A DNA stretch of 32,559 bases from a virus: the IMG/VR virus record IMGVR_UViG_3300043419_000447, positions 1-32,559 of that record. The stretch is one strand, 5' to 3'. Both the position numbers and the translations under genes were made by a program. Shown piece after piece: positions 4,129-21,778 of the stretch. Numbering within the stretch: the first letter of the stretch is position 1; each line of letters starts with the position of its first letter. Under the pieces are notes generated by a model that did not search any database, was not told the origin of the DNA, and worked only from the letters and a program-made list of their open reading frames with translations.

Positions 4129-4230
4129 ATGAACCAAGAACCACCTATTGTCGGAATCCTCGCAATCTACTGCTTTGGAGTAGCGTGCGGATTCGGAGCC
4201 GCCTTCCTTGTTTTTACCTTTGCATTCTAA
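4129..4230 (+). CDS. 33-aa single-pass membrane peptide
   Basis: A short ORF fills the gap between the SSB-like and RecT-like genes. It starts 3 bases after one stop and ends 13 bases before the next start. The product begins MNQEPPIVGILAIYCFG and is almost entirely hydrophobic from residue 7 to 33, with small residues (G, A) in the middle. It would form one transmembrane helix with a short N-terminal tail. No clear ribosome-binding site is visible. A real mini-protein is likely from its position, and its function is unknown. Confidence 0.5.
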   Translation: MNQEPPIVGILAIYCFGVACGFGAAFLVFTFAF

Positions 4231-4243
4231 ACTACCAAACGAA

Positions 4244-4885
4244 ATGAATACCGAACTAACTACCACAACCGCAGAAACGCAAGCCTTCGAGCTTGTCCAA
4301 CGCCAAGCCAAGATGCTTTCAGCGTCCACGCTTGTTCCTAAAGAGTTTCAAGGCAACATGGGCAACTGCGCCATCGCCTTGAATATCGCCAAACGACTGG
4401 GGGCTGACCCCTTCATGGTGATTCAGAATATCGACATCATCCACGGGCGGCCCAGTTTCCGCGCTACGTTCCTAATCGCCATGGTCAATGCATCGGGGCG
4501 CTTCACGCCGCTCCAATTCCGCATGGCTGGAGAAGGCGCTTCCCGCTCGTGCGTTGCATGGGCTAAGGACAAGGAGACTGGCGATGTGATCGAAGGCACC
4601 GAGATCACCATGGCGATGGCGAAAGCTGAGGGATGGTCAACCAAGTCAGGAAGCAAGTGGGTCACCATGCCGGAGCAAATGCTCCGCTACCGTGCCGCTG
4701 CGTTCTTCGCTCGGATCTACGCTCCTGACATCACGCTTGGAATGCAGACCAGCGAGGAGATGCGCGACATTGAGCCGGTGCGCAACGTCACGCCAGCAGT
4801 GCGTAGCGAGCCGATCAACCCGTTCGCTCCGGCATTGCCAGCGATTGAGGCTGAAACTCTGGCAGAGGAAGGAGGTGAAGCATGA
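4244..4885 (+). CDS. RecT-like ssDNA-annealing protein (candidate)
   Basis: A 213-residue protein. Residues 18-80 contain QAKMLSASTLVPKEFQG, then NCAIALNIAKRLGADPFMVIQN and IIHGRPSF. I associate this pattern with phage RecT-related proteins (some annotated as enterohemolysin-associated) that pair with a lambda-exo-like nuclease. Residues 130-165 have a basic, aromatic stretch. The C-terminal about 40 residues are low complexity and acidic. The neighbours are an SSB-like gene upstream and a YqaJ exonuclease downstream, the usual recombination module. The ATG at 4244 is chosen because the longer frame runs back into the membrane peptide gene. Confidence 0.66.
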   Translation: MNTELTTTTAETQAFELVQRQAKMLSASTLVPKEFQGNMGNCAIALNIAKRLGADPFMVIQNIDIIHGRPSFRATFLIAMVNASGRFTPLQFRMAGEGASRSCVAWAKDKETGDVIEGTEITMAMAKAEGWSTKSGSKWVTMPEQMLRYRAAAFFARIYAPDITLGMQTSEEMRDIEPVRNVTPAVRSEPINPFAPALPAIEAETLAEEGGEA

Positions 4886-5100
4886 GCCAAGAGCAAGACA
4901 ACAGCGCGTTCCCCTTGCATATGCACGGTGACTACGGCAAAGGCATGACCCTGCGCGATTACTTCGCGGCGGCAACTTTGCAGGGTTTTCTTGCTAACTC
5001 AAGCAATGAGTTTGTGATGCTCCCGCACGTCAACCTAGCGTCCGAAGCCTACATGGTGGCCGACGCAATGCTCGCAGCAAGAAAGGAGGCACAACCATGA
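4882..5100 (+). CDS. Conserved small phage protein (G-MTLRDYFAA motif)
   Basis: A 72-residue protein with the segment GMTLRDYFAAATLQG at residues 21-35 and a C-terminal helix YMVADAMLAARKEA. Small proteins with this motif pair are widespread in phages and prophages and have no known function. The start has a strong GGAGGTG ribosome-binding site at 4871-4877 and overlaps the RecT-like stop by ATGA, so the two are translationally coupled. Confidence 0.7.
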   Translation: MSQEQDNSAFPLHMHGDYGKGMTLRDYFAAATLQGFLANSSNEFVMLPHVNLASEAYMVADAMLAARKEAQP

Positions 5101-5369
5101 TGACCCACGACGAAATGATTGCGGTGATCCAGCATCACAGGGACGGGGGCAAGGTGGAGTCCAAAAAATCCAATGATTCACAGTGGGAAGAATTGCTTGA
5201 ACCACATTGGAATTTTTCAGCGTGCGACTACCGCCCCAAGCCCGAACCGATGACGATATACGCCGAAATCTGCGCCTTGAAAGGCACTCTTATGCGGGCG
5301 AGGAAGGAGCGGATTAATCCGGTTTACGTTAACACAATCATCAAGAGATTCATCGAAGCCAATGACTAG
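5097..5369 (+). CDS. Conserved small phage protein (W-NF...DYR-KPEP type)
   Basis: A 90-residue protein. The first 55 residues follow a pattern common in phage early regions: an N-terminal helix EMIAVIQHHRDGGKVE, a Trp, then HWNFSACDYRPKPEP. Its biochemical role is not known. The ATG has a good AAAGGAGG site (5082-5089) and overlaps the previous stop. The C-terminal 35 residues form a basic helix. It overlaps the next gene by 8 bases. Confidence 0.66.
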   Translation: MMTHDEMIAVIQHHRDGGKVESKKSNDSQWEELLEPHWNFSACDYRPKPEPMTIYAEICALKGTLMRARKERINPVYVNTIIKRFIEAND

Positions 5370-5658
5370 CATCCAAGCCGCGCTGAATCTTCTGCGCAAC
5401 ATCAAGCCGACGAAGGCAGAGATCTGCAAAGCTAAAATCCTGCTCGCCGCTCATGGCGAGTGGGTAACTTCTAAGCAGATCCGCGAAAAGGCGAATTTCA
5501 AAGACTGGCCGTATTTAGGCTTGATGCACTTAGCCAAAGAGGGTCTGATCGAGGAACGGCGCTTCATGCACCTAGTCGAATGCGGCGCAAAGTGCTATCG
5601 CCGGCATTACAGGACTACAGCGAAAGGAACTAAACACCTCACCCAACTCATGAAATGA
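5362..5658 (+). CDS. Winged-helix-like protein
   Basis: A 98-residue basic protein. Residues 21-65 read as a winged helix: KAKILLAAHGEWVTSKQIREK, a turn, WPYLGLMHLAKEGLIEERRF, then a wing. Two cysteines (about 71 and 75) flank the C-terminal strand. The fold suggests DNA or RNA binding, or a structural adaptor. It sits immediately upstream of the exonuclease, overlapped by ATGA, and may be part of the recombination operon only by position. Confidence 0.55.
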   Translation: MTSIQAALNLLRNIKPTKAEICKAKILLAAHGEWVTSKQIREKANFKDWPYLGLMHLAKEGLIEERRFMHLVECGAKCYRRHYRTTAKGTKHLTQLMK

Positions 5659-6281
5659 ACTACCACATCCTAAATCTAGAACAAGGCACGCCGGAGTGGC
5701 TAAACGCTCGCAAGGGCAAGCTGACGGCATCGCAAGCGGCAAGCATCATCACGCCAACAGGCAAACTAGCGGCGGCATCCAAGGGGTTGATGCGCAAGCT
5801 GGCCCGGGAGTGCCTGCTGGATGATCCTCTGGAGTTCCAAGGCAACGCCGCTACGCAATGGGGACATGCGCACGAGCCAATCGCTCGCAATGCATTCTCC
5901 GAGCTAACCGGTCACGCAGTCGACACCGTTGGAATGCTGCAATCTAGCTTGCATCCATGCTTGGCTTGCTCGCCTGATGGACTGCTGATGATCGACGGCG
6001 TGATTCACGGGCTGGAGATCAAGTGCCCATCGGTGGACACTCACGTCGATTATCTACTCGATGGCGAGTTGCCAGCTAAATACCGTCCACAGGTGCATTT
6101 CAGCATGGCGATCACTGGCATTCAGACGTGGTATTTCATGAGCTACTTTCCGGGGTTAAAGCCTTTGATCCTGCCAGTCCACTGGGACGAATACACCGAG
6201 AAGATCAAGGACGCTGCATTGTCATTTGCAGCGGAGTATGAGCAGGAGATGCCGAGAATCCTTAACGCGATCAGACCATGA
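5655..6281 (+). CDS. YqaJ/lambda-exonuclease-family recombination nuclease
   Basis: A 208-residue protein. GTPEWLNARKGKLTASQAAS at the N-terminus is the hallmark opening of YqaJ viral recombinases. Catalytic residues of the PD-(D/E)xK fold are visible: Glu74 in GHAHEPIA, Asp108 in SPDGLL, Glu121 and Lys123 in LEIKCPS, and Gln146 in PQVHF. These enzymes degrade the 5' strand of double-stranded ends so that the RecT-like partner can anneal the 3' strand. With the SSB-like gene this makes a complete two-component recombination system. All motifs are intact. The start is set by ATGA overlap. Confidence 0.9.
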   Translation: MNYHILNLEQGTPEWLNARKGKLTASQAASIITPTGKLAAASKGLMRKLARECLLDDPLEFQGNAATQWGHAHEPIARNAFSELTGHAVDTVGMLQSSLHPCLACSPDGLLMIDGVIHGLEIKCPSVDTHVDYLLDGELPAKYRPQVHFSMAITGIQTWYFMSYFPGLKPLILPVHWDEYTEKIKDAALSFAAEYEQEMPRILNAIRP

Positions 6282-6541
6282 CACCAACACAAGAACAGAT
6301 CGAGGCGGCGTTGGCGTATGCTGCTGATAACGAAATCGCATGGGACACCGAAATTATTGACGCATGGCAGCAAAAGAAATGCGTCAACAATCTTCTTGCG
6401 GATAGATACGCAGCATCAGCAGCAATCCTCGCCGCCGCATACCGCGAACTGCGAGAAGAAAACAACCGCTTGAAGGCATGGGCAGATTTGGCGATTTCGT
6501 CAAACGCATTGCTTGAAATTGAAAGATTGAAGAAACTATGA
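6278..6541 (+). CDS. Hypothetical helical protein
   Basis: An 87-residue, largely helical protein: residues 5-20 (EQIEAALAYAADNEI), then a long Ala- and Glu-rich helix from about residue 45 to 87 that could be coiled coil (YRELREENNRLKAWADLA). I recognise no family with a known function. Similar short proteins are frequent in phage early operons. Overlaps of ATGA type on both sides support the coordinates. Confidence 0.6.
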   Translation: MTPTQEQIEAALAYAADNEIAWDTEIIDAWQQKKCVNNLLADRYAASAAILAAAYRELREENNRLKAWADLAISSNALLEIERLKKL

Positions 6542-6744
6542 GCAGACCGATGAGCAGCGCGGAATCCGCGCATTATGAACGCAGATCGAAGGACTCCGAA
6601 ACCGAGCCGCCACAGGCGCGATGGCAAGCGTCGTTTAACCGCGCGTGCGACAAGTTCCTGATGGAGCGTGTGCCAGGCTACAAGGTGCAGTTTGTCGAAT
6701 ACAGTGAGCGAGCCAAAAAGTCATGGGCGAAACGGAAACTTTAG
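6538..6744 (+). CDS. Hypothetical small basic protein
   Basis: A 68-residue protein rich in Arg and Lys at the C-terminus (YSERAKKSWAKRKL). No motif is recognised. The net positive charge would fit nucleic-acid binding, but nothing specific shows it. The start overlaps the previous gene by ATGA. The 3' end overlaps the next ORF by 22 bases, so one of the two boundaries may be imprecise. Confidence 0.5.
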   Translation: MSRPMSSAESAHYERRSKDSETEPPQARWQASFNRACDKFLMERVPGYKVQFVEYSERAKKSWAKRKL

Positions 6745-6908
6745 AGAAGCTGCGCCAATGGTGGCAGGCCGCGCCAAAAGAGGAACGGCTTGCCATCAAC
6801 ATCACAGCCGCGGCGCTGAAGGTTGACGACCCAGAGCATCGGCAAAGCGTGCAGCGGCGGATAGAGGCGCATTGGAGGAGATTCATCAACAAGGATTACA
6901 CGAAATGA
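6723..6908 (+). CDS. Hypothetical small helical protein
   Basis: A 61-residue protein with several Trp and Arg residues (LRQWWQAAPKEERLAIN; RRIEAHWRRFI). Probably two or three helices. No family is recognised. It overlaps the gene before by 22 bases and the gene after by ATGA. No strong ribosome-binding site is present, so translational coupling is likely. Confidence 0.5.
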   Translation: MGETETLEKLRQWWQAAPKEERLAINITAAALKVDDPEHRQSVQRRIEAHWRRFINKDYTK

Positions 6909-7105: not shown

Positions 7106-7302
7106 AACAAGCACTATCCACAACCGAGAAGATGATCCTGCGTGACTTGAGCGCTGGGCAGTCAACTGCGGATGCTATCGCGCTGCGATTCGGGCAGACA
7201 GCCGAGCAGATCCGCAAGGCGATGACGCGACTTGAGAAGCTGCGCATGGTAGGATCGAAGAAGATCAACAATGGAAAGTTTACGGTTTATGAGTTGCGGT
7301 AA
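7102..7302 (+). CDS. Small winged-helix protein
   Basis: A 66-residue protein with the sequence logic of a winged helix: KMILRDLSAGQSTADAIALRF, then QTAEQIRKAMTRLEKLRMVG, then a wing NNGKFTVYELR. The second helix is a good recognition helix. It is the last gene of early operon 1 and lies just before promoter P2 and the structured leader, so it is a candidate regulator of that leader or of P1-P3. The start overlaps the previous stop by ATGA. Confidence 0.62.
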   Translation: MKQALSTTEKMILRDLSAGQSTADAIALRFGQTAEQIRKAMTRLEKLRMVGSKKINNGKFTVYELR

Positions 7303-7311
7303 AAAATAAAT

Positions 7312-7351
7312 TTGACACAAACGCAATTTGCTGACATATTCAGCGCGTCAC
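7312..7351 (+). promoter_or_regulatory. Early promoter P2
   Basis: TTGACA at 7312-7317 is a perfect -35 box. It is followed by a 17-bp spacer and CATATT (7335-7340), then after 2 bases GCGCGTCAC (7343-7351), which spans the expected start site near 7347. This is the best sigma70-like promoter in the window. It shares spacing and the start-site block with P1 and P3. It points into the structured leader upstream of the helicase gene. Confidence 0.72.
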
Positions 7352-7456
7352 GACCGGACCCGTGATTAGCCTTCAAAACATTTTCCCCGCCATGGGGTCA
7401 GTTCTGCAAATGCTCAGGCACGCGCAGGTCCGGACTGACAACGTGGCGGGATTTTT
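7343..7456 (+). ncRNA. Structured leader or small RNA with alternative helices and terminator-like end
   Basis: Transcription from P2 would start near 7347. Visible helices: CCCGCCA (7386-7392) with TGGCGGG (7444-7450), followed by ATTTTTATT; GTCAGT (7397-7402) with ACTGAC (7434-7439); CTGC/GCAG (7404-7407/7424-7427); TGC/GCA (7411-7413/7418-7420). Together they make one long irregular hairpin. Competing with it are CCCC-GCCAT-GGGG (7385-7397) and a long-range perfect helix CCGGACC (7354-7360) with GGTCCGG (7427-7433). The last crosses the terminator helix, so it is either a pseudoknot or a switch. The hairpin ends 12 bases before the GTG start of the helicase. Either an attenuator or a free-standing RNA of about 110 nt fits. 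Confidence 0.62.
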
Positions 7457-7462
7457 ATTGTC

Positions 7463-8818
7463 GTGATTCTAAGACCATATCAACAGGAACTCTTCGCCGA
7501 TATTCAAGGCGCATTGCGTTCTGGTATTCGCGCACCGCTTGTCGTATCACCTACTGGATCCGGCAAGACTGCCACATTCTGCTACATAGCACACAGAGCA
7601 GGACAAGCGCAAAGCGATACACTGATACTAGTTCATCGCACCGAGCTAGTCAGTCAAACGAGCCAGACGCTGACGAACTACGGCGTGACGCACGGAATCA
7701 TTCAACCAGGTATATCGCCGGCACCTCAGCACAAGGTGCAACTCGGCATGGTGCAGACCATCGCTCGTAGGTTGACAAAGATCACTCCACCGAAGCTGAT
7801 CATCGTGGATGAATGCCATCACATGCCAGCATCGCAATACCGCGCAGTGGTCATGGCATTCCCATCCGCTCGCGTGATTGGATTTACTGCAACGCCATTG
7901 CGTCTTGATGGCAAGGGGCTGGGTGATTTCTTCGATCAGATCATCGAAGGGCCGAAAGTCGAATGGTTGATGGAAAACGGATTCTTGTGCCGTCCAAAGT
8001 ATTATGCACCGCCAACCTGCGCGGATCTAAGTAACATACGCAAGCGTGCCGGAGACTATGCGTCTGATGATCTTGCCGCAGCGATGAACAAACCAAAGGT
8101 GACAGGTGGCGTGATTGCTCACTACCGCAAGATTTGCCCGGGAGCGCGAGCAGTTGCGTTTTGCGTTACCATCGCTCATGCCGAGCAGGTGGCCGAAGAA
8201 TTTAACGCCGCAGGAATACCGTCTGGAGTCATCAGCGGGAACATGGACAAAAACGATCGGAAGCAAATTGTGCAGGATCTCGCGGATGCGAAAATCAAGG
8301 TCATGTGCAGTGTTGATACGGTATCGGAAGGATTTGACCTGCCAAGCGTTGACGCGGCGATCCTGCTTCGCAAGACGCAATCTCTGGGTTTGTATTTGCA
8401 ACAGGTCGGTCGCGTATTGAGGCCAGCGGAAGGCAAGCAAGCGGTCATTCTGGATCATGTCGGAAACATTGCAAAGCATGGACTCGCAGAGGATGAGCGC
8501 GAATGGTCACTGGAAGGCATCGAAAAGGACGACAAAAAGAAGAAATCCGAGCTGTCACGCAATAAGCAATGCGGATCCTGCTACGCGGTTTATGACAGGT
8601 TCAAAAGCAAATCCTGCCCAGAGTGCGGACATGTCGAAGCGCCGAAGATCCCAGAGCAGACAGATGGCGAGCTTGTCGAAATCAAGCGCATCGAAAAAGC
8701 GCCATTGCGCGAACTTATGAAGGAAGTCAAAACCAGAGAAGACCTGAAGCGCATCGCCAAAGTCAAAGGCTACAAGCCGGGATTCGTATGGTATAAAGCC
8801 AAGGAACTAAATTTATGA
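7463..8818 (+). CDS. SF2 DEAD/DEAH-box helicase with C-terminal zinc ribbon
   Basis: A 451-residue superfamily 2 helicase. Motif I SPTGSGKT is at 29-36, motif II DECHH at 116-120, motif III FTATP at 141-145 and motif VI QQVGRVLRP at 313-321, so both RecA-like domains are complete. C370, C373, C385 and C388 form a zinc ribbon (CGSC...CPEC), and a basic tail follows. Phage enzymes of this type remodel replication forks and recombination intermediates (UvsW-like role). The start is a GTG directly at the N-terminus of the conserved domain. There is no Shine-Dalgarno site, and a terminator-like hairpin lies just upstream, so expression may be controlled there. It is coupled to the nuclease gene by ATGA. 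Confidence 0.9.
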   Translation: MILRPYQQELFADIQGALRSGIRAPLVVSPTGSGKTATFCYIAHRAGQAQSDTLILVHRTELVSQTSQTLTNYGVTHGIIQPGISPAPQHKVQLGMVQTIARRLTKITPPKLIIVDECHHMPASQYRAVVMAFPSARVIGFTATPLRLDGKGLGDFFDQIIEGPKVEWLMENGFLCRPKYYAPPTCADLSNIRKRAGDYASDDLAAAMNKPKVTGGVIAHYRKICPGARAVAFCVTIAHAEQVAEEFNAAGIPSGVISGNMDKNDRKQIVQDLADAKIKVMCSVDTVSEGFDLPSVDAAILLRKTQSLGLYLQQVGRVLRPAEGKQAVILDHVGNIAKHGLAEDEREWSLEGIEKDDKKKKSELSRNKQCGSCYAVYDRFKSKSCPECGHVEAPKIPEQTDGELVEIKRIEKAPLRELMKEVKTREDLKRIAKVKGYKPGFVWYKAKELNL

Positions 8819-16582: not shown

Positions 16583-18298
16583 ATGAATAAATCTGAGATT
16601 CTTTTCAGCGCCTTCCGCTCCGCGTGCCGTCCACCGGTCAAGATGCCGCCAAGTGAGTGGGCAACTGGCAGGGTGGCACTCTACGAGGGATTATCACCAA
16701 CTTACCAGGCAGACTCAGCGCCATGGCTCCGAGAGCCGCTGGATGCATTCGCTGACATTGACGCGAAAGAGGTTTGCCTACTCGCGCCCGTCGGAACTGG
16801 CAAAACTACGATGATCGAGGCGGCGCTTTCGTTCGTGATTTCCGAAGACCCAGGTGGCACCATGATCGTGGGCCAGACCGATGCCGACATCAAGGACTGG
16901 GCAGAGACGCGGATGCAGCACACGTTGCGGAATACAAAGGAAACCGCGGGACTACTTCCAACTGGCAAGCACCGACACAAGCTACGGAAAGACGCGATCA
17001 TTTTCCCGCACATGAGCATGTTCCTGACTGGCGCGAATATCTCTGGCTTGCAAGCAAAGTCGATGCGACGCGTTCTCTGCGACGAGGTTTGGACATGGGA
17101 CAAGGGCATGATCCGCGAGGCTCAGGGGCGCTTGCATGATCGCTGGAACCGGCAGTTCTACCTTCTAAGCCAAGGCGGCTATGTCGGTGACGACTGGCAC
17201 AAGAAATGGGCGGCGACTTCGCAGCATGAATTCTCATTCTGCTGCCCATCGTGCCAGACATGGCAGGGCTGGCGCTGGGAGAATGTGGTCTATGATGACA
17301 CTATCGCGGATCGTGTGACGATGGCGCAGACGGCACGAATCAAGTGTTCGAATGCCGACTGCGATTACAACATCGAGGACAAGCCGCAGATCCGGCGCGA
17401 ACTAGCGACCGCTGGCAAATACATTCAGCAAACCGAGGGAATGCCGGATTCCAAGGGCTACCACTATTCTGCTCTGGCGAACTGGCGGCTTTCACTGTGG
17501 CGGCTTGTGATTGAACGCTGCGAAGCGATGGACGAGGTGAGTCGCGGCAATCTCGACTTGCTCCGGCAGTTCATCCAGAAACGCTTGGCCGAGTTCTGGA
17601 GCGATGAGCAGGAGGACAACCGCGTAACGCTGTCAGATTTCGGCTACCTGCTTTCTGACTACGACCAAGCGCAGCCGATTGACGACGAGGCGCAGCGATT
17701 CATGACGATCGACCGCCAGGCAGACCATTTCTGGGTCGTGATTCGCGCATGGCGAGCCGACGGATCCTCGCGCTTGCTCTGGTTCGGCAAGGTTGACACA
17801 TGGGAGCGCGTCAAAGTGATCCAAGAGACTTACAAAGTCGAAAACCGCAAAACGCAAATTGACTGTGGATACCAGACCAGCGAAGTTTACTCACGATGCA
17901 ACCAATACGGATGGCTTGCGCTTCGGGGAGACGGTCGCGACAGCTACCCGCATCCAACCAAGCAAGGAAAACCGATTTACAAGGCATTCAGCCGATACCA
18001 AAAAGTTACCAGCGCGAACGGCAAGAAAACGATGGTCTGCTACTGGTCGAACCTTCGGCACAAGGATATTCTCTTTCAGCTGCGAAACCAGAAAGGCGTG
18101 GCGTGGGAAATTCCCGACGATGCCGGGCGTGAATACCTCCGGCAGATTGATGCCGAGGTGAGGCGCGGCGAAGGCAAGACGGCGGTCTGGAAAAAGCGCC
18201 ACAACGACAACCACGCGACCGACTGCGAAGCTATGCAGATCGTTCTGGCTTCGATGTTCGGACTGATTGGGTCGCCAGAGGAGAAGGAGGATATTTGA
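16583..18298 (+). CDS. terL: Terminase large subunit (lambda GpA family)
   Basis: A 571-residue packaging motor and nuclease. The ATPase has Walker A APVGTGKTT (68-76) and Walker B RVLCDEVW (163-170). A zinc ribbon follows (CCPSC ... CSNADC, about 215-260), then the nuclease with aspartates in FMTIDRQ, IDCGYQTSE and HATDCEAMQ. This domain order is that of lambda GpA. I prefer the ATG at 16583. A TTG at 16562 would give a 4-base overlap with TerS and seven extra residues. The ATG matches the 19-21 nt distance from the TTGACACC element seen at other late genes. Confidence 0.92.
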   Translation: MNKSEILFSAFRSACRPPVKMPPSEWATGRVALYEGLSPTYQADSAPWLREPLDAFADIDAKEVCLLAPVGTGKTTMIEAALSFVISEDPGGTMIVGQTDADIKDWAETRMQHTLRNTKETAGLLPTGKHRHKLRKDAIIFPHMSMFLTGANISGLQAKSMRRVLCDEVWTWDKGMIREAQGRLHDRWNRQFYLLSQGGYVGDDWHKKWAATSQHEFSFCCPSCQTWQGWRWENVVYDDTIADRVTMAQTARIKCSNADCDYNIEDKPQIRRELATAGKYIQQTEGMPDSKGYHYSALANWRLSLWRLVIERCEAMDEVSRGNLDLLRQFIQKRLAEFWSDEQEDNRVTLSDFGYLLSDYDQAQPIDDEAQRFMTIDRQADHFWVVIRAWRADGSSRLLWFGKVDTWERVKVIQETYKVENRKTQIDCGYQTSEVYSRCNQYGWLALRGDGRDSYPHPTKQGKPIYKAFSRYQKVTSANGKKTMVCYWSNLRHKDILFQLRNQKGVAWEIPDDAGREYLRQIDAEVRRGEGKTAVWKKRHNDNHATDCEAMQIVLASMFGLIGSPEEKEDI

Positions 18299-20423: not shown

Positions 20424-21778
20424 TGAAACCGACGGCAGAAATGGCAGAGGAAGCGCGGCGCGGGCTTGCATGGCGAGCCGAATACAAGCGCGGCGGCACA
20501 GCGGTCGGAGTGGCACGCGCTCGTGACATTAGCAATCGTTCCAATCTCTCACCGGAAACAATCCGACGCATGGTTTCATATTTCGCGCGGCATGAGGTAG
20601 ACAAACAAGCCGAGGGATTCCGACAAGGTGAAGAAGGCTACCCATCAGCCGGGCGAATCGCATGGGCGCTCTGGGGCGGCGACGCTGGGCAGACATGGGC
20701 AAATCAACAATCAAAACAACTCGAAAACTCTATGATCGAAATCGAAAACAAGGCAGCGAAGGTGAAGCTGAATGACCATGTGGATAAGTTCAGCGTGGAC
20801 AAGCTGATTGATGACATTGCCAAAGTCTACGGCATGAAGGCGGTGGAAAACTCTTACGCGTTCGGAGAGATCGTGGCTTGTGCTGACAATGCCGTCGATA
20901 CTCTAGAAGTCGAAATACACTCCGGCGGCGGAAGCGTCTTTGAAGGTTACCGAATCTTCAACGAGATGAAGAAGCTGCGCGAACGCGGCGTTTACGTCAC
21001 CGCACGCATAAACACGCTCGCGGCATCCATGGGCAGCGTCATCGCGATGGCAGCCGATAAAGTGGAAATCGCCAGCAACGGAAAAATCATGATCCACGAA
21101 GCGAGCGGCGGCGCTCAAGGCGATAGCGAAACATTGCTACGCTATGCCGAGCTTCTCGAAAACATCAGCGACGAAATCGCCGGTATCTATGCTGAGAAAA
21201 CCAAGCGAGACAAGGATGACATCCGTAAGTTGATGAAAAAAGAGACTTGGATGACAGCAGATCAAGCGATCGAGTTAGGATTCGCAGATGAAATTTTTGA
21301 CACCAACGCAAAGGCAATGAGCATTCTGGACAAATTCCGCCCTGATGCAGTCTTGACTGAAAAAGTTCAAGGACTGGAAGCAAGCCTCGAATCCGCGCAA
21401 GCCGAGATCACCGAGATGACCGCAGCATTGACCGAGCGCACTGGTGACTTGGAAAACGCCATCAGCGAACTTGCCACCATTAAGGCGCAACTCGACGAGA
21501 TCACAGCAGAGCGCGAAACGCTGACCGCTTCGCTCACTGAAGCTCAAAGCAAAGTTGCCGAACTGGAAGCCAGCATCGTGGAAGCTAGCACTTCCGCCGA
21601 GGCTCGCGCTGCCGAGATCGTCGCTCAGGCTGGCATCGCTCCTCTCGACGTTGCTTCCGATGAACAGCCGGAAGAAATCAACGCTGAACAACTTCGCGCC
21701 AAAATCGAAGCAATCGCTGACCCGAAAGCTCGCTTGGAAGCGCGTCTCAAAAACTGGGACAAACTCAACTCTCACTAA
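20423..21778 (+). CDS. Head maturation protease (ClpP/S49-like) fused to scaffold, with extra N-terminal domain
   Basis: A 451-residue fusion. Residues 1-100 are a domain (GLAWRAEYKRGG ... RMVSYFARHEVD ... RIAWALWGGDAG) that I have seen in phage virion genes but cannot name. Residues 105-310 are a ClpP-like protease: HSGGGSVFEG (166-175), Ser202 in LAASMGS and His225 in KIMIHEA. Residues 310-451 are a long coiled coil with the composition of a capsid scaffold. An internal ATG at 21317 could release the scaffold alone, as lambda Nu3 is made from within C. A second internal ATG at 20732 would start the protease without the extra domain. Confidence 0.85.
   Translation: MKPTAEMAEEARRGLAWRAEYKRGGTAVGVARARDISNRSNLSPETIRRMVSYFARHEVDKQAEGFRQGEEGYPSAGRIAWALWGGDAGQTWANQQSKQLENSMIEIENKAAKVKLNDHVDKFSVDKLIDDIAKVYGMKAVENSYAFGEIVACADNAVDTLEVEIHSGGGSVFEGYRIFNEMKKLRERGVYVTARINTLAASMGSVIAMAADKVEIASNGKIMIHEASGGAQGDSETLLRYAELLENISDEIAGIYAEKTKRDKDDIRKLMKKETWMTADQAIELGFADEIFDTNAKAMSILDKFRPDAVLTEKVQGLEASLESAQAEITEMTAALTERTGDLENAISELATIKAQLDEITAERETLTASLTEAQSKVAELEASIVEASTSAEARAAEIVAQAGIAPLDVASDEQPEEINAEQLRAKIEAIADPKARLEARLKNWDKLNSH
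21297..21304 (+). promoter_or_regulatory. TTGACACC element, copy 3, before an internal ATG of the protease-scaffold gene
   Basis: It lies inside the protease gene, 20 nt before the in-frame ATG at 21317. The wider context TTTTGACACCAACGCAAAGG, followed by CAATG, is similar to copies 4 and 5 at real gene starts. Confidence 0.48.
21317..21778 (+). CDS. Nested scaffold protein from an internal start (predicted)
   Basis: The internal ATG at codon 299 of the protease gene would give a 153-residue protein, MSILDKFRPDA followed by about 90 residues of coiled coil rich in Glu, Ala and Thr, then a basic end ARLEARLKNWDKLN. This is the size and composition of a capsid scaffold, and lambda-like phages commonly make the scaffold from an internal start within the protease gene. 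The TTGACACC element 20 nt upstream matches that of neighbouring genes. The start is not proven. Confidence 0.5.
   Translation: MSILDKFRPDAVLTEKVQGLEASLESAQAEITEMTAALTERTGDLENAISELATIKAQLDEITAERETLTASLTEAQSKVAELEASIVEASTSAEARAAEIVAQAGIAPLDVASDEQPEEINAEQLRAKIEAIADPKARLEARLKNWDKLNSH

Follow-up and report, generated by a model that had tools for sequence, protein, structure and literature searches.

Translation of RepY/RepZ that depends on a pseudoknot was reportedly described by Asano and Mizobuchi in 1998 (cited in PMC10286972 and PMC10724649). This RepY/RepZ (RepB/RepA) leader operates in I-complex and IncL/M plasmids, whose replication gene needs both translation of a leader peptide and the pseudoknot (PMC8125031, PMC10286972, PMC10724649); PMC8125031 describes the IncM case.

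The RNA element reported here precedes a helicase gene in a 32.5-kb stretch of viral DNA (the window, meaning the whole stretch analysed) and resembles the plasmid leader in two respects: the loop of a 5' hairpin pairs with a distant site, and, judging by sequence, a short leader ORF in between stops at or near the start of the gene to be controlled. However, in RepY/RepZ the partner of the loop is buried in a stem until the leader has been translated, whereas MFE folds of the phage element leave it in an unpaired bulge. The plasmid leader controls a replication initiator, whereas the phage elements precede genes for a helicase, an N6/N4 methylase, a GIY-YIG protein or a DUF1376 protein. RepY/RepZ also has an antisense RNA against its 5' stem-loop, but none is evident for the phage element: no minus-strand sigma-70-like promoter was found near it in the window or in the related phage contig L010, and one weak site was found in contig L008. 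Finally, the phage element carries a U-run after its hairpin, and no sequence kinship between the two systems is apparent. By analogy, the phage element would thus work like a RepY/RepZ-type leader, but with an exposed partner strand, other genes downstream and no sign of an antisense RNA, I do not file it as a member.

Two further systems invite comparison. Leader-ORF attenuators of the trp/his type share the order of promoter, short ORF, hairpin with U-run and structural gene, but in the phage element no codon bias or conserved peptide is seen, there is no antiterminator hairpin, the U-run is not conserved, and a pseudoknot is present. The T4-type gene 32 mRNA is likewise a phage message for DNA replication whose leader combines a pseudoknot with an A-rich linker, but the second pseudoknot strand of the present element sits in the bulge of a long hairpin, and I know of no coupled leader ORF or long terminator-like hairpin in the gene 32 leader.

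The locus and its predicted fold

In the window, 160 nt separate a 77-aa ORF (ending at 7302) from the GTG start of the helicase gene (Table 1). Transcription from the promoter in this interval would begin at about 7347, and a TTGAC box stands at a comparable place in all seven elements described below. The initial annotation called this promoter the best of the window; its 10/12 match is confirmed, but it shares the top rank with two other 10/12 sites. Similarly, the helicase GTG indeed has no ribosome-binding site, but this does not set it apart: the missing Shine-Dalgarno sequence is unremarkable because many genes of this phage have little or none.

Table 1. Features of the leader element and its immediate surroundings in the window.
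Feature	Position	Strand	Description and basis
Sigma-70-like promoter	7312..7340	+	TTGACA-17 nt-CATATT, TG before the -10; 10/12
P1, 5' hairpin	7348..7365	+	TCACG-ACCGGACC-CGTGA; MFE fold; loop holds the 5' half of the pseudoknot
Pseudoknot, 5' strand	7354..7359	+	CCGGAC; loop-bulge matching in 7/7 elements; C7360 can give a seventh pair
Putative leader ORF	7362..7466	+	34 codons; GTG at the P1 3' strand; TGA overlaps the helicase GTG (GTGA)
P2-P3-P4 long hairpin	7386..7450	+	9 bp, 2x2 internal loop, 7 bp, 3' bulge, apical hairpin; MFE fold
Pseudoknot, 3' strand	7428..7433	+	GTCCGG; unpaired 3'-side bulge 7428-7432 of the long hairpin plus one flanking base
U-rich tail	7451..7459	+	ATTTTTATT; from sequence; possible intrinsic terminator or U-rich ribosome landing site
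Helicase gene	7463..8818	+	GTG start; PHROG 16, ResIII/DEAD plus Helicase_C

Two other features of the window can be recorded here. The box TTTGACACC occurs on the plus strand at 18294, 22927, 24357 and 29830, and also at 21296 (five occurrences against 0.21 expected by chance), and four of the five lie 20-21 nt upstream of an ATG start; TTTGACACA is found at 7311. The TTTTGACACC form of the box was not found in related records, and the box is perhaps a phage-specific promoter or start signal. There is also a tRNA gene at 2854-2925 on the minus strand, opposite to the surrounding phage genes (Rfam RF00005, 35 bits).

Positions 7340-7460 fold at -47.5 kcal/mol (z = -3.04), and one of 200 shuffled sequences folds equally well. 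The initial annotation had described a stem that ends the transcript, and the long hairpin, with CCCGCCATG/CGTGGCGGG outermost, is indeed followed by the U-rich tail, the helicase GTG lying 12 nt past the stem. Its long-range helix between CCGGACC (7354-7360) and GGTCCGG (7427-7433) is likewise perfectly complementary, but the proposal that this helix competes with the hairpins fails. Because the cores of both strands are unpaired in the MFE fold (loop 7353-7360 and bulge 7428-7432), the helix is instead a compatible pseudoknot, five pairs of which form in the window with everything else intact; in some elements the outermost one or two pairs require the opening of a hairpin closing pair. The loop bases that pair lie directly against the P1 3' strand, which is the usual geometry of an H-type pseudoknot. 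A second supposed competitor, the CCCC/GGGG helix at 7385-7397, exists as letters but is absent from the best fold and has no counterpart in relatives, and it was rejected as not conserved. A switch between mutually exclusive helices is therefore not supported, since one of the supposed competitors is compatible with both hairpins and the other is not conserved.

Relatives in other phages

Relatives of the locus were reached through the primase and helicase genes, which led to phage contigs L004-L010. The same layout, in different letters, lies directly upstream of the orthologous helicase in L010 (66% identity) and L008 (59%); these elements are called L010b and L008b, and with the window they share synteny. 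A descriptor scan for a P1 loop with a six-mer complementary to the bulge of a downstream long hairpin gave three more in the same contig group, L010a and L008a, each preceding a DNA methylase gene (N6/N4 methylase), and one in L006, which precedes a GIY-YIG gene with the helicase next after it. The L231 element came from a promoter-pattern scan of IMG/VR; it precedes a DUF1376 gene, and the neighbouring genes in this phage are different. Altogether, the matches listed comprise at least seven elements in five phage contigs, plus one truncated copy. Every element reads in the sense direction and is preceded by a promoter, and the next gene starts no more than ~25 nt further on.

The element is rare, with at least five contigs carrying it. 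In L004, L005 and L007, whose primase is the same and whose helicase is related, it is missing before the helicase, and the whole records of L005, L007, L009, L188 and L220 contain no member. Relaxed promoter and stem-pattern scans of IMG/VR gave no further member among the matches listed.

Some of these contigs show additional features. The methylase genes and their element copies lie in tandem duplications (L010 1952-2068 and 2868-2965; L008 3250-3460 and 4100-4310). The truncated copy, at L010 2868-2965, has lost both promoter and P1, and a 1-nt difference joins its ORF to the methylase in one continuous frame. Directly upstream of the L231 element, on the minus strand, is an 884-aa ORF (4175-6829) that by eye looks like an SNF2-type helicase-DNA methylase fusion. 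In another phage group (L023, L025, L028 and L030), a GTGCGGGA...TCCCGCAC inverted repeat occurs ~110 nt before the related helicase match and in several of these contigs encloses CGTTATAA/TTATAACG. Among the stable hairpins checked upstream of other phage helicases, the L057/L043 type was set aside; to my reading it looks like the start of a divergent minus-strand gene rather than this element.

Covariation and specificity

In all seven elements, the loop (7-9 nt) matches its own bulge (6-9 nt) by 6-7 bp while other combinations average 2.6, and in an all-against-all comparison none of the 5040 possible assignments of loops to bulges does better than the true one. This test is independent of the structural alignment, but the limits of the loops and bulges were set by hand. 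All six pseudoknot positions show at least two pair types, and a counterpart of P1 with two-sided changes is present in every relative.

The structural alignment leans to the model's structure because it was fitted to it; in it, 97% of cells are paired and compensatory changes, which the initial annotation had suggested looking for in relatives, affect both sides of 20 of the 24 pairs, a result reached by none of 500 shuffles. When the partner strand was slid in the alignment as a control, pairing fell to 40-45%. With the pseudoknot included, 95% of cells are paired and 24 of 30 pairs are two-sided, and most pseudoknot misfits trace to the truncated copy and to L231, with its shift of one base. 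L008b and L231 are 90% identical and differ mainly in P1, its loop, P4 and the bulge, largely by compensatory changes.

A covariance model built from L008b and L231 only, searched against 202 kb, placed L010a (E = 2e-6), L008a (2e-5) and L010b (1e-4) at the top, followed by the truncated copy (0.003), with the best other match at 0.31. A six-member model searched again in 683 kb returned only those six (81-101 bits), the next match having E = 0.54. The window and L006 copies have no sequence match to the covariance models; their pseudoknot, layout and position, which in the window is before the orthologous helicase as in L010 and L008, make a good case that they belong. Confidence in the structure is high for the L231, L008 and L010 elements and good for the window and L006.

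The six-base match is not specific by itself, since it occurs 129 times in 968 kb of mixed phage DNA and nearly as often, 109 times, after shuffling, and in that scan members were distinguished only when the U-tail, intergenic position, promoter and covariance model were added. Searches of 768 bacterial genomes (one class and one order) with the covariance model returned three matches that resemble chance hairpins, two of them ordinary terminators. Comparing the elements with INPHARED and PLSDB by blastn gave nothing but short chance matches. No Rfam 15 family exceeds its gathering threshold, in agreement with the earlier failure to match the RNA to a known class, and at gathering and relaxed thresholds only a chance microRNA match falls at the element.

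The original suggestion that a structured RNA lies between the promoter and the helicase gene is strongly supported, and the compensatory changes were indeed found in relatives. Because relatives from other uncultured phages keep the same knot with different letters, the element, as far as sequence comparison can tell, is a real, conserved and unnamed pseudoknotted RNA element.

The leader ORF

Overlooked in the earlier reading is the ORF that overlaps the helicase start. In all seven elements a frame of 30-40 codons begins close to the end of P1, its start codon standing from 4 nt upstream to 7 nt downstream of that point. The last base of its stop falls in the interval from 5 nt upstream to 10 nt downstream of the next gene's start. 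Stop and start overlap in the window (GTGA) and L008a (ATGA); the junction is TAATG in L231 and TAG|ATG in L010b. Across linker and hairpin, the ORF frame has no stop in 7/7 cases, whereas the other two frames are open in 3/14. Under a null that randomises the sequence while keeping the pairing, the product of the seven probabilities is ~1e-5, in a test that was framed after the data had been seen and in which the start codon was not randomised. Upstream of the leader start codons no clear Shine-Dalgarno sequence stands out.

Conservation does not extend to the peptides, and nearly identical hairpin DNA is even read in different frames in L008b and L231; an explanation by coding alone was rejected on the ground of these unconserved peptides. 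What appears from the sequences to be conserved is an open frame that ends at the next start.

Function of the element

The best explanation, to which I assign a probability of roughly 0.6, is that the element is a cis-acting leader RNA of ~115 nt before the helicase gene, which would couple a short upstream ORF to the next gene and would represent a small, unnamed phage RNA family. A cis-acting leader fits because the orientation is constant, a promoter lies ahead, a gene start lies just behind and the ORF is coupled. Sequence comparison supports the view that the P1 loop pairs with the bulge of the long hairpin, so that P1, pseudoknot and hairpin would make up one compact fold, and that the short ORF begins at P1, crosses the long hairpin and stops at the next gene's start. 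With the leader ORF untranslated, the pseudoknot would clamp both the long hairpin and the start region. Expression of the downstream gene would then be poor, owing to a hairpin where ribosomes enter and, in elements with a good U-run, to early termination too. A ribosome on the leader ORF would melt the hairpin and pseudoknot, and the stop codon would deliver it to the helicase start by translational coupling. Points that count against this reading are the unconserved peptides and their different frames in L008b and L231, the lack of a clear Shine-Dalgarno sequence at the leader starts, the variable U-run, the orthologous helicases of L004, L005 and L007 that have no element, and the failure of the window and L006 copies to match the covariance model. 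My confidence in this function overall is moderate.

The U-run bears on how much of this control might be termination. It is terminator-like in about three of seven elements (the window, L008a and L006, where it follows a G+C-rich stem at once), displaced by AACC in L231 and L010b, and weak in L008b and L010a. Since it varies in this way, termination is unlikely as the shared function, and translation control through the leader ORF is more likely to be the common one; an attenuator is possible. As for the riboswitch that was initially considered, the seven elements have few invariant columns, and it is in the pseudoknot and P4 that most changes fall; with hardly any nucleotide conserved, such a switch is unlikely.

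The same variable U-run weighs on the main rival, which I consider unlikely: that the element is a free, pseudoknotted small RNA of 105-115 nt with its own promoter and intrinsic terminator, acting in trans on a protein, the ribosome or a host factor, with the downstream gene a mere neighbour. The promoter directly ahead, the terminal hairpin and U-run of the window, L008a and L006, the compact conserved fold with its variable letters and the four different kinds of gene that follow would all suit such an RNA. However, four of seven elements have a U-run that is either weak or set off by AACC, and a free RNA would need neither the gene start that is always close nor the leader ORF that ends there in 7/7.

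It is much less probable that the element is a signal for RNA processing or stability, the long hairpin being an RNase III site or 5' protector, as between T7 early genes, with a pseudoknot that only stabilises it. Although the hairpin is long, bulged and located between genes, this would leave the compensated loop-bulge pairing, the adjacent promoter and the coupled ORF unexplained. Least credible is a DNA-level element, a single-strand hairpin for replication or recombination that lies between gene modules by chance, which would suit the position at module borders and the part that the elements take in the L008 and L010 tandem duplications, where methylase genes are involved, but not the fixed orientation relative to promoter and gene start, nor, easily, the pairing of a leader loop with a bulge.

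Returning to the cis-acting leader, one may tentatively go further and suppose a new class of gene-control RNA in phages, a promoter-leader cassette in which the loop-bulge pseudoknot, a lock-and-key sequence re-encoded in each copy, gates translation of the coupled leader ORF and hence of phage replication and modification genes. Diversified pairs would then prevent interference between copies in one genome or between co-infecting phages. I regard this extension as possible but doubtful.

Significance

To my knowledge, DNA phages have so far yielded few leader RNAs with a pseudoknot, and control of phage genes through coupled leader ORFs has been little studied. L008b and L231 amount to a natural experiment in which the pseudoknot letters are changed on both sides and most else is unchanged; therefore, the mechanism is testable with a small set of reporters. 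The covariance model can now be used for searching other viromes. In the phages that carry it, this still unnamed RNA element probably has the downstream gene under its control.
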